A stretch of 64,000 nucleotides of DNA, taken from NCBI RefSeq assembly GCF_900102315.1, contig NZ_FNBL01000002.1:283194-347193 (forward strand). The letters are read 5' to 3'. The notes beneath the pieces are model-generated. The model was not told the DNA's origin. It saw nothing but the letters and a program-made list of their open reading frames with translations, and made no database searches. The stretch's first letter is position 1, and every line of letters begins with the position of its first letter. Source of the stretch: Celeribacter baekdonensis. GTDB taxonomy: Bacteria > Pseudomonadota > Alphaproteobacteria > Rhodobacterales > Rhodobacteraceae. The position numbers and the translations under genes are program-made. Shown in pieces: positions 18,654-62,832 of the stretch.

Positions 18654-20366
18654 ATGCCTGCAAAAATTTCCCGCGCCACCTATGCCGATATGTTTGGCCC
18701 GACCACGGGCGACAAGGTCCGGTTAGCCGATACCGATTTGATCATCGAAGTCGAACGCGACCTGACGGGCCCTTATGGCGAAGAAGTCAAGTTTGGCGGC
18801 GGCAAAGTGATCCGCGATGGCATGGGCCAATCGCAATTGTCGCGGGCCCAAGGTGCCGTTGACACGGTGATCACCAACGCGTTGATTTTGGATGTGACCG
18901 GGATTTTCAAGGCCGACATTGGCCTCAAAAGCGGGCGCATCGCCGGGATTGGCAAGGCCGGAAACCCCGACACGCAGCCGAATGTTGACATCATCGTCGG
19001 TCCCGGCACAGAGGTGATCGCGGGCGAGGGCCGGATCATCACGGCGGGGGGCTTTGACAGCCACATCCATTTTATTTGCCCGCAACAGATTGAAGATGCT
19101 CTACATTCTGGCCTGACCACCATGTTGGGCGGCGGCACCGGGCCGGCGCATGGCACGTTGGCCACCACCTGTACCCCTGGTCCATGGCATATCGGTCGGA
19201 TGTTGCAGGCGCTCGATGGCGTGCCGATGAACATCGCGTTGGCGGGCAAGGGCAACGCGAGCCAACCGCAGGCTTTGGTTGAAATGGTCAAGGCGGGTGC
19301 GGCGGCGCTCAAGCTGCATGAGGATTGGGGCACGACGCCCGGCGCGATTGATTGCTGTCTCTCAGTGGCCGATGACATGGACGTTCAGGTGATGATCCAC
19401 ACCGATACGCTCAACGAATCCGGCTTTGTCGAGAACACGGTCAAGGCGATGAAAGGCCGCACGATCCACGCCTTTCACACCGAGGGCGCGGGCGGGGGGC
19501 ACGCTCCCGACATCATCAAAGTTGTGGGCGAAGAGCATGTGATCCCGTCCTCTACCAACCCGACACGGCCCTATACGATCAACACGTTGGAAGAGCATCT
19601 CGACATGCTCATGGTCTGTCACCACCTCGACAAATCCATTCCCGAAGATGTGGCTTTTGCCGAATCCCGCATCCGCAAAGAAACCATTGCCGCCGAAGAC
19701 ATCCTGCATGATATGGGCGCGTTTTCCATCATCGCCTCCGACAGTCAGGCCATGGGCCGGGTGGGCGAGGTCTTGATCCGCACCTGGCAAACGGCGGATA
19801 AGATGAAAAAACAACGCGGTCGCTTGTCGGATGAGACTGGCGACAATGACAACGTTCGGGTGAAACGCTACATCGCGAAATATACGATCAATCCGGCGAT
19901 TGCCCATGGGATGAGCCGCGAAATCGGGTCGATCGAGGTCGGCAAGCGTGCCGATCTTGTGATCTGGTCACCGGCGTTCTTTGGCGTGAAACCGGAGATG
20001 GTGCTTTTGGGCGGCTCGATTGCCGTGGCGCAAATGGGCGATCCGAATGCCTCGATCCCGACGCCGCAACCCGTCTATACCCGACCGATGTTTGGTGCCA
20101 TGGGCCGCGCGGTGGAACACTCCGCCGTGTTGTTCGTCTCTGCCGCCGCTCAGGCCGAAGGCATCGGCGCCTCTTTGGGCCTCCACAAACAAACCGTAGC
20201 GGTGGAGAACACCCGCAAGATTGGCAAATCGTCGATGGTGATGAACACGGCAACGCCCAAGATCGACGTCAACCCGGAAACATACGAGGTGCGCGCCGAT
20301 GGCGAGCTTTTGACCTGTGAACCCGCCTCTGAGTTGCCGATGGCGCAGCGCTATTTTCTGTTTTGA
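18654..20366 (+). CDS. ureC: Urease subunit alpha (catalytic)
   Basis: 570-residue nickel amidohydrolase that hydrolyses urea. Nickel ligands and active-site residues are intact: HIHF near 137, the carbamylated Lys in ALKLHEDWG, His in [12 protein letters not shown] and [16 protein letters not shown], the flap [22 protein letters not shown], and Asp in [11 protein letters not shown]. Full length. Downstream the operon is interrupted by two minus-strand genes before ureE. Confidence 0.98.
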
Positions 20367-59605: not shown

Positions 59606-59639
59606 CCGACATTTCAAAATCCAAAGGCCAGATATGAAA

Positions 59640-59711
59640 ACACCCGCGCCAGGGAGGAGGAGGGCGCGGGTGTCTCAGTATGCGGGCCACGAGGGAGGAG
59701 AAGGACCCGTA
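59640..59711 (-). ncRNA. Cuckoo/CcsR-type small RNA, unit 4 (last)
   Basis: Two hairpins on the minus strand: 59711-59682 (stem CGGGTC/GGCCCG, loop with TCTCCTCCC) and 59673-59640 (stem ACACCCGCGCC/GGCGCGGGTGT, loop CTCCTCCTCCCT). The final GC-rich hairpin is followed by TTTTC and can act as the terminator of the whole array. Confidence 0.75.
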
Positions 59712-59723
59712 TCAGAAAGAAAT

Positions 59724-59796
59724 GCGGCGGTGTCAGGGAGGAGGAAGACACCGCCGCCTTCAGTAACGGCCCCTCAGGGAGGAGGAAGAGAGACCG
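59724..59796 (-). ncRNA. Cuckoo/CcsR-type small RNA, unit 3
   Basis: Hairpin 59796-59767 (CGGTCTCTC pairs with GAGGGGCCG using two G-U pairs) and hairpin 59757-59724 (perfect 11-bp GCGGCGGTGTC/GACACCGCCGC). Both loops read TTCCTCCTCCCT. Confidence 0.78.
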
Positions 59797-59825
59797 CATA
59801 TCGAGGGCTTTCACCCGGTATAGGT

Positions 59826-59897
59826 GCGACGATGCAGGGAGGAGGAAGCATCGCCGCTCTGGTCTTTGGGGTCCAAGGGAGGAGGAAGAACCCCAAA
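59826..59897 (-). ncRNA. Cuckoo/CcsR-type small RNA, unit 2
   Basis: Hairpin 59897-59865 (TTTGGGGTTC/GGACCCCAAA with one G-U) and hairpin 59857-59826 (GCGGCGATGC/GCATCGTCGC with one G-U). Both loops contain CCTCCTCCC. Confidence 0.78.
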
Positions 59898-59910
59898 TTC
59901 CGGTATCTGC

Positions 59911-59980
59911 GCGGCGACGTCAGGGAGGAGGAGAGACGCCGCCGCTTTTATCAGGGCCCAGGGAGGAGGAAGGGCCGTGA
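59911..59980 (-). ncRNA. Cuckoo/CcsR-type small RNA, unit 1
   Basis: Nearest to the DUF1127 gene, 10 bases past its stop. Hairpin 59980-59951 (GGCCC/GGGCC core, outer TCA/TGA) and hairpin 59945-59911 (GCGGCGGCGTC/GACGTCGCCGC with one G-U). Both loops contain CCTCCTCCC. Probably cut from the DUF1127 mRNA, as described for RSP_6037-CcsR1-4 of Rhodobacter sphaeroides. Confidence 0.78.
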
Positions 59981-59990
59981 TGTCGTAAAC

Positions 59991-60206
59991 TTATTTGCCG
60001 TAAGCGGCCTCGTAGGCCACGGCGTTGATCGATGCGCGGGACATGCCCAGATCGGCCAGATCACGGTCGGTCAGACCGGACAGCTCAAGCATTGTTTCGC
60101 GGTAAACTTTGTAGCGTGCGAACCGTTCTGCCAAAGATTTGAACAGACCGCCGAAAGAAGCGGAGGAGGCCGGTGCGGCACTGCGAATGTCGTTTGCGTA
60201 AGTCAT
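59991..60206 (-). CDS. ccaF1: DUF1127 small RNA-binding protein, CcaF1-like
   Basis: 71 residues. The DUF1127 core is ETMLELSGLTDRDLADLGMSRASINAVAYEAAYGK, preceded by a basic amphipathic helix (SLAERFARYKVYR). The R. sphaeroides counterpart of the same length, CcaF1 (RSP_6037), binds RNA and helps mature the CcsR small RNAs encoded just behind it. The same arrangement is present here with eight hairpins downstream. AAGG lies 10 bases before the ATG. Confidence 0.88.
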   Translation of the reverse strand: MTYANDIRSAAPASSASFGGLFKSLAERFARYKVYRETMLELSGLTDRDLADLGMSRASINAVAYEAAYGK

Positions 60207-60550
60207 GTGACTTTAACCTTAGTATGCGTTCAGGCGATTTGCCCGGAGTGAGTGCGATCTGACTTTGGCCGGTTCCGCTTTTCGAACTACCCTTGCGGGG
60301 GTCGGTTTAAAGCGGTTTGGGCTTTGGCGCTGTCGCTCGTTGCTTGAGTACAATTTGGGGGAATTGCTGCGAATGCACAATCCCTTGCCTCGTCAATGCT
60401 GCCATGCAGAAAATGCATGACCCATGCTGACCTATTTACACGCCAGGATTGCGCTACCAGCGGGGCGGGGCGAAAAGCGGCAGATTGAGTGGTGGAATTG
60501 GGTCAGCAAAGGGCCTATTTCGGAGGGAGAGCAAAAGAGGGATAGGATCT
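60207..60550. other. Intergenic region between the DUF1127 gene and mrp
   Basis: About 340 bases between divergent genes, containing both promoters. I see GTTCCGCTTTTCGAAC, an inverted GTTC/GAAC pair near 60271-60286, upstream of the DUF1127 gene, and no credible ORF. I could not identify an RpoH-type promoter with confidence. Confidence 0.45.
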
Positions 60551-61645: not shown

Positions 61646-61668
61646 TCACGACATTGGCGGCGGTTTGT

Positions 61669-61703
61669 AACGCGCGGGGCGAGGGCTCCGCGCGTTTTTG
61701 TTT
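61669..61703 (+). terminator. Intrinsic terminator after mrp
   Basis: AACGCGCGG (61669-61677) pairs with CCGCGCGTT (61688-61696), followed by TTTTTGTTT, 23 bases past the mrp stop. Confidence 0.88.
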
Positions 61704-61722
61704 GGGCGGCGCAGTCGTCTTT

Positions 61723-61780
61723 TGGGATTTCATGAGAGCGGTGGGATTTTATGGTACTTTTGGGAATTCATGACATTTTA
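61723..61780 (+). repeat. Three 19-bp direct repeats upstream of mraZ
   Basis: TGGGATTTCATGAG (61723), TGGGATTTTATGGT (61742) and TGGGAATTCATGAC (61761) recur at exact 19-base intervals. TGGGA is also the core of MraZ binding boxes, although those usually repeat every 10 bases. Confidence 0.6.
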
Positions 61781-61823
61781 CGGGGATCTTATCCCAATTC
61801 ATCCTCACGGCGAATCACTTACC

Positions 61824-61832
61824 TGTGGATAA
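61824..61832. promoter_or_regulatory. DnaA-box-like 9-mer upstream of mraZ
   Basis: TGTGGATAA, exact reverse complement of TTATCCACA, in the AT-rich leader about 500 bases before mraZ. A weaker TGTGGATTT follows 41 bases later. Confidence 0.4.
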
Positions 61833-62331
61833 CTCGGTGGAGTTTTGTGATTTTGCTGGGGGCATGTGGATTTTTTCGCTCCTCTGATCTGTGTGGCGGT
61901 GGCTTCCGTTTTGTCTATATGTAGTTGGATTGATCTATGCTTAACCAACATGCGGTAAAATACCTGTGATCTCGGGGTGCAACATCTGGTTTTAATCCAG
62001 CCCTGTGGGCAACATCTGGGGGCTGTGTGTAAGAAATCCATTGATTACCATGAATTCCCGTGCCAAATTGAACGCATCAGATGAGACGGGAATGAGCGGC
62101 GCATTCAAGACCGCAAACAAAACCCCAAAGTCAGGTTTCATACAGGCCCCGCTTTCATCCGTACAAAGAGATTCGACGCGCATGCGAGCAGACATCCCCC
62201 CAGATGGCGCGCGCAGTCGGACAGCCCGGATACCGGGACGAGGGCGGCGGATCGAGCAGTGGCAGCAGCTCGGTCCGCCGTTTCGCATTCAAAGGCCCCG
62301 ACATTGGGGTGGACAGGTAAAGGAGCGCCGC

Positions 62332-62832
62332 GTGGCCGGCATGTTCATTGGCGAACACACCTTTAAGGTGGACGGAAAGGGACGCGTGTCGATCCCTGCC
62401 GATTTTCGTCGTGAACTCGAAGAGGGCGACCCCCTTGCCACGCAATCCGGACGTCCGCGCATGGTCATCGTCTATGGCCATGACAAACAAAAGCAACTCA
62501 TCGTGCACACCTATGACGGCTATCGCCGCCTTGCCGCCGATATTGCCGCGCTCCCGCGCGGATCGGAAAAGCGCAAGATCATGGAGCGCATGATCCTGAA
62601 CCGCGCTCGCCCGACCGAAGTGGATGCCGATGGCCGTTTGGTGTTGCCGCAGCCGTTGCGTGACAAGATTGACCTCGACGGCACCGCCTATTTTGCCGGT
62701 CTGGGTGAGACATTTGAGATTTGGAAGCCCGAAACCCACGCCGAAGTCGATGCGGCTGTGACGGAAAAATGGCTGGACGAGCAGGGGGATGATTTCGATC
62801 CTCTGAGCCTTTTGGACGATATGGGGGTCTAA
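62332..62832 (+). CDS. mraZ: Transcriptional regulator MraZ
   Basis: 166 residues with two AbrB-like swapped-hairpin repeats: [19 protein letters not shown] and [19 protein letters not shown]. MraZ binds DNA in the dcw promoter and controls division genes. The GTG at 62332 has AAGGAG seven bases upstream and puts GEH at the position of family GES/GEY motifs; the ATG at 62341 would be too far from the ribosome site. rsmH follows after one base. Confidence 0.95.

Follow-up and report, generated by a model that had tools for sequence, protein, structure and literature searches.

The closest described counterpart of the locus reported here is an operon of R. sphaeroides in which, according to the accessible parts of the published accounts, the gene of the 71-aa protein CcaF1 is followed by four CcsR RNAs (PMC10253847). 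CcaF1 is described as a DUF1127 protein that binds RNA; an RpoHI/HII promoter drives its gene together with CcsR1-4, and RNase E cuts the resulting precursor. The ccaF1-CcsR-type loci of alphaproteobacteria carry the label CIN1 (PMC10253847, PMC8625941, PMC8307010, PMC3320616). The four RNAs have been reported to be induced by singlet oxygen (PMC3320616), to target flhR mRNA in trans and to interact with Hfq (PMC8307010), and CcaF1 to promote their maturation (PMC10253847) and, in excess, to interfere with it (PMC8307010); other DUF1127 proteins are described as working via protein contacts (PMC12501420). Two further descriptions, again as far as the accessible text of each goes, concern the cuckoo motif, consisting of 2–4 adjacent hairpins with a conserved loop and variable helices (PMC4504443), and NfeR1 of Sinorhizobium, whose three loops are redundant and silence ntrB by base pairing (PMC10746234).

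In the window, that is, the whole 64,000-nt stretch of Celeribacter baekdonensis DNA that was analyzed, a ccaF1-type gene at 59991–60206 of the minus strand encodes a 71-aa DUF1127 protein (PF06568, E = 7.3e-11), whose best relative belongs to C. baekdonensis B30 (99% identity). This short gene lies directly upstream of, and on the same strand as, an array of eight hairpins (59640–59981, minus strand), which begins 9 nt past its stop codon, is CcsR-like by Rfam matches, folding, covariation and G-U bias, and is read here as four two-hairpin sRNA units. Hairpins 1 (59950–59981), 2 (59911–59945), 3 (59861–59901), 4 (59826–59857) and 6 (59719–59761) were located by loop search and hairpin parsing, hairpins 5 (59766–59797, G-U-rich stem) and 7 (59680–59712, the weakest stem of the array) by hairpin parsing, and hairpin 8 (59637–59673, stem 59640–59673) from sequence and fold, all of them on the minus strand. 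The loop is exactly CCUCCUCCC in seven hairpins and UCUCCUCCC in hairpin 7, in agreement with the sequence-only reading that had first pointed to eight minus-strand hairpins with one variant loop, and the minus strand of the 64-kb window holds CTCCTCCC eight times, its plus strand a single time. The array closes with a GC-rich stem and no more than TTTT (59640–59637), so hairpin 8 with its T run is probably a terminator; the terminator scan takes loops of 3–8 only, which places this hairpin beyond its reach.

The loop-to-loop spacings along the array are 38, 46, 40, 60, 41, 43 and 41 nt, and the division into four units rests on them. The proposed four two-hairpin units fit these spacings in general, but the step from hairpin 6 to hairpin 7 (43 nt) barely exceeds the steps within pairs. 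Unit sizes of 70, 72, 73 and 72 nt had been given before; our recalculation replaced them by approximately 71, 76, 79 and 73 nt, values that depend on where the stems are cut.

To see the array in relatives, 27 loci were collected by the CcaF1 protein alone and passed to a hairpin parser that seeks [CT]CTCCTCC loops. In 17 of the 27 (CcaF1 E ≤ 5e-12) a cluster of at least two hairpins lay beside the gene, downstream in 16 cases and upstream in one (L037), and the 10 weaker CcaF1 loci gave no hairpin cluster by this parser. A search for Mrp at 77 loci (L021–L097, six of which are second copies of a genome region) found it at 60. An alignment of seven Celeribacter upstream regions further revealed that two blocks between ccaF1 and mrp are conserved (60359–60437, no strand assigned); they are candidates for a putative promoter or operator that serves ccaF1, the divergent mrp or both. 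A scan for the sigma-70 consensus, the only promoter type scanned for, found none. Between these coordinates the window has CTGC-ATG-GCAG (60399–60409), and most relatives have CTGC-N3-GCGG instead; the window copy resembles CTGC-N3-GCAG, which we take to be the PhaR operator pattern. As for other stretches of the window, 61650–62365, approximately 2 kb from ccaF1 and upstream of a mraZ-like gene, gave no Rfam match, and 18810–19097 of the minus strand matched the Rfam 5' ureB sRNA (RF02514) with 106.3 bits against a cut-off of 40.

A covariance search of the array with Rfam models returned both CcsR1 (RF02791: three matches, 51.3, 39.6 and 31.4 bits, best E = 1.2e-10) and ar14 (RF02344: two matches, 54.0 and 53.1 bits), with E-values from 1e-10 to 9e-5 and all scores below the gathering cut-offs of 65.3 and 58.8 bits, respectively. 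Because these cut-offs were missed, we assign the array to the operon type and to the cuckoo RNAs, and to neither Rfam entry. At E ≤ 0.001, in a search whose filters lose some weak matches, RF02791 matched in 163 of 198 family genomes, yet only 9 of the 198 passed the cut-off, so a score below it is the rule in the family; 14 control genomes gave a single match, likewise below the cut-off. The paired loop pattern was found in 217 of 295 family genomes, with at most 4 occurrences per genome and strand for the reversed pattern used as a control. The source genome itself contains two more two-hairpin CCUCCUCCC RNAs, on contigs C22 (L001:1192-1276, minus strand) and C26 (L002:1164-1279, minus strand), which are alike and have T-rich ends (ar14, 45.5 and 34.9 bits; CcsR1, 32.6 bits each; all below the cut-offs).

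Compared with the described systems, the locus shares with ccaF1 (RSP_6037)-CcsR1-4 of R. sphaeroides, as far as the accessible text describes that operon, the gene of a 71-aa DUF1127 protein with four homologous CCUCCUCCC-loop RNAs of two hairpins each behind it on its own strand (PMC10253847; RS0680a stem loops, PMC3927594). It differs in belonging to another genus and in its diverged stems, as the best RF02791 score reflects. Adjacent CCUCCUCCC-loop hairpins are common to the array and the cuckoo RNAs in their available description, to which the array conforms if it is four two-hairpin RNAs; unlike them, it has eight hairpins in a row, one UCUCCUCCC loop and a GCGGCG-type arm in the second hairpin (hairpins 2, 4 and 6). 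NfeR1, the ar14 RNA of Sinorhizobium, has the same hairpin loop and is unlike the array in having three hairpins and its own promoter, and in being without a DUF1127 partner in the accessible part of its description (PMC10746234). The PF06568 protein, the Rfam matches, the neighbouring Mrp and the covarying stems described below bear out the assignment to the ccaF1-CcsR/cuckoo type made in the sequence-only reading, and the feature is thus a further, well-supported ccaF1-CcsR (CIN1, cuckoo) operon of a known kind.

The constant position of the array downstream of a gene for an RNA-binding protein, together with the binding of CcsR RNAs by CcaF1 in R. sphaeroides and its help in their maturation, as partially accessible in PMC10253847, would also suit a cis-acting 3'-UTR element, which stabilizes or terminates the ccaF1 mRNA, or an autoregulatory decoy bound by CcaF1, the loop being a protein site and not a seed. 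We regard this as unlikely, since a trans action of CcsR1-4 on flhR has been reported (PMC8307010), the NfeR1 loops are reported to work by base pairing (PMC10746234), and two-hairpin copies occur elsewhere in the source genome.

Both strands of 59640–59985 were folded. The minus strand had a minimum free energy of −154.1 kcal/mol (z = −7.92; none of 100 shuffles reached it) versus −142.2 kcal/mol for the plus strand (z = −2.40; 1 of 100 shuffles reached it). Among the single internal mismatches of the window array, 6 were G-U, 1 was A-C and 2 were others, in which the six G-U stem positions reported earlier reappear. Read on the array strand, the single internal mismatches of 474 family hairpins (of 495 counted) comprised 251 G-U and 21 A-C, and therefore selection has acted on a minus-strand RNA, as had been proposed from the window alone; the p-value of this bias overstates independence because the hairpins share descent, whereas its direction is clear.

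Covariation was evaluated in an alignment of seven Celeribacter sequences, the six relatives having been picked by the CcaF1 protein and not by hairpins. The eight helices hold 99.2% of 617 pair cells, so the stems are kept in relatives and the claim of a conserved RNA structure stands. Two-sided changes were found in 15 of 90 pairs, whereas shuffles averaged 6.8 and none of 500 reached 15. When the structure was shifted by 1–3 columns on the same alignment, 0–5 two-sided pairs resulted, a comparison that favours the unshifted structure because RNAalifold derived it from this very alignment. Further pair types were no more numerous than in shuffles (36 versus 36.5), and helices 1, 4 and 6 are nearly invariant and contribute little to covariation. 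Pairwise substitution was lowest in the loop motif (0.030), followed by stems (0.124) and linkers (0.168); this loop value is the fairer figure, since in the family set conservation at seven loop positions is fixed by construction, that pattern having been used to find the loops. Regarding the earlier statement that stems vary while loops stay fixed, the loops are indeed the steadiest part, but the stems do not vary throughout, hairpins 2, 4 and 6 having a common GCGGCG 5' arm.

This arm recurs in relatives. A GCGRYR-type 5' arm was present in 134 of 182 second hairpins versus 25 of 191 first hairpins of the 44 arrays that have a DUF1127-like frame at most 200 nt upstream, and mean stability was −24.4 kcal/mol for second versus −19.8 kcal/mol for first hairpins. 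Spacing in arrays alternates between medians of 40 and 65 nt. Array size ranged from 2 to 26 hairpins in 62 parsed arrays, a set that omits six duplicate loci, L001, L002 and L037 and gives no frequencies because loci were partly chosen for size, so that long arrays are enriched. The longest (L078, G165:C1:333500-337500) has 26 hairpins and the other long sampled arrays have 12–14. No such long arrays are described in the literature searched, the coverage of which left out the main papers, and for that reason we claim no priority for them; the 2–26 hairpin size range and the GCGGCG-type stem of the second hairpin are additions of this study that we do not claim to be unpublished. In inter-loop segments of the 62 arrays, GATAC was observed in 48 of 433, a minority (7.5 in mononucleotide shuffles), ATACG in 52 of 433 (7.5) and ATACC in 34 of 433 (7.8); window copies of such linker words lie at 59902–59907 and 59708–59713, and the motif is a possible processing or protein-binding site.

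The 26-hairpin array of genome G165 is made up in part of a 140-nt block in 6.5 copies with 97% matches, and we read it as having grown by three-hairpin blocks. Block expansion of this kind would suit palindromic DNA repeats, or a mobile repeat family devoid of RNA function, a reading that we nevertheless consider barely credible in view of the excess of G-U over A-C mismatches, the two-sided pair changes, the slow change of the loops and the conserved place and orientation of the arrays. The many identical loops per transcript, up to the 26 of this relative, also bear on whether the released RNAs titrate purine-rich sRNAs or Hfq and exert no direct repression of mRNA, to which the reported interaction of CcsR with Hfq (PMC8307010, in its accessible part) would lend itself. 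This appears quite improbable to us, because the related NfeR1 is reported to repress mRNA directly (PMC10746234), and of the two roles that had been offered for the loops, that of a sponge gains no support from the present data over that of a repressor.

For a repressor, the question is what the loops could pair with. Their complementarity to GGGAGGAGG-like start regions, as proposed in the sequence-only reading, was evident: in the source genome, GGGAGGA at 3–11 nt from an ATG occurred at 154 sites versus 12 for the reversed pattern, and AAGGAGA in the same arrangement at 155 versus 19. For each motif, the surroundings of some of the first 100 listed sites yielded 59 ORFs of at least 60 aa, with 15 (GGGAGGA) and 13 (AAGGAGA) shorter frames dropped. 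A crude signal-peptide rule flagged 27 of 59 GGGAGGA ORFs versus 9 of 59 AAGGAGA ORFs (Fisher p = 0.0006). Among the 25 commonest of 82 Pfam families, the GGGAGGA set had DctP (4), Peripla_BP_4 (4), Peripla_BP_1 (3), Peripla_BP_6 (2), NMT1_3 (2) and SBP_bac_1 (1), counts that may include the same protein more than once; the only family of binding-protein type among the 25 commonest of 80 in the AAGGAGA set was SBP_bac_5 (1). In a 56-kb sample of contig C15 (533,000–570,000 and 630,000–649,000; L218–L220), selected for its GGGAGGA clustering, the motif stood at 12 of 46 gene calls. Genes of this sample resemble sox (sulfur oxidation), xoxF (lanthanide methanol dehydrogenase) and adhI (glutathione-dependent formaldehyde dehydrogenase); they are reminiscent of the C1 metabolism and pyruvate dehydrogenase named in the title of an R. 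sphaeroides paper. A side observation in the source genome is a lone long hairpin with CCTCCTCCC in its loop followed by eight T (L018:516-567, plus strand; contig C23, approximately 275,915–275,966), just upstream of a gene with a periplasmic-binding-protein-like product; it is possibly a leader terminator, and Rfam models searched to E = 0.1 did not match it.

Genomes with and without the array were then compared, 'array-negative' denoting the lack of both the exact paired pattern and a RF02791 match, a definition through which a diverged array may slip. GGGAGGA was not conserved at the candidate targets pdhB (1 of 14 array-positive versus 1 of 11 array-negative genomes, after 3 that lacked a full orthologue had been dropped) and adhI (3 of 14 versus 3 of 13, 1 dropped), and the ratio of GGGAGGA to AAGGAGA sites did not track the array (medians of approximately 0.92 in 14 positive and 0.97 in 14 negative genomes). 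In the array-negative genome G093, 10 of 17 GGGAGGA ORFs were flagged as exported (7 short ones dropped), against 0 of 4 AAGGAGA ORFs (2 dropped). GGGAGGA thus marks exported genes also where there is no array, and given this same bias and the unconserved pdhB and adhI sites, no coevolution was found. Direct targeting via GGGAGGA sites, considered as a candidate, was rejected on these grounds together with the site counts, which ignore the presence of the array; the complementarity outlines a possible target class and gives no evidence of targeting.

Taken as a whole, the locus is probably a Celeribacter ccaF1-CcsR operon whose transcript is processed into anti-Shine-Dalgarno sRNAs that lower translation under stress. 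A single transcript would carry the 71-aa DUF1127 protein and, in its 3' part, the string of eight hairpins, and cuts by RNase E, modulated by CcaF1, would release about four two-hairpin sRNAs. Each of these would expose two CCUCCUCCC loops, which resemble the anti-Shine-Dalgarno end of 16S rRNA and may act as its mimics. By pairing with GGGAGGAGG-like ribosome-binding sites, the loops would make a group of mRNAs less well translated during stress, and by analogy with NfeR1 and CcsR1-4 the two-hairpin unit may be a repressor that offers two equivalent seeds. It is from the work on R. sphaeroides and Sinorhizobium that we infer co-transcription, processing, induction by stress and repression; the role of CcaF1 is less certain, maturation being promoted in one partially accessible account (PMC10253847) and, with CcaF1 in excess, disturbed in another (PMC8307010).

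With this locus, and with the evidence from covariation and strand, the studied stress operon of R. sphaeroides is extended to Celeribacter, and the family survey reveals that the curated cut-off of RF02791 misses most copies in the family. We also put forward, as a tentative and rather doubtful idea, that the array is a modular regulator of tunable dosage, in which one promoter serves identical anti-Shine-Dalgarno seeds, and hairpin blocks duplicated in tandem determine how many there are (2 to 26 hairpins in the relatives sampled). These would act on a pre-existing class of mRNAs with GGGAGGA sites (solute-binding proteins, C1 metabolism and sulfur oxidation), and array length would tune the whole transport and catabolic class together rather than individual targets. 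If array length and this class were linked in function, this would be a simple means of adjusting numerous genes for transport and catabolism during stress.
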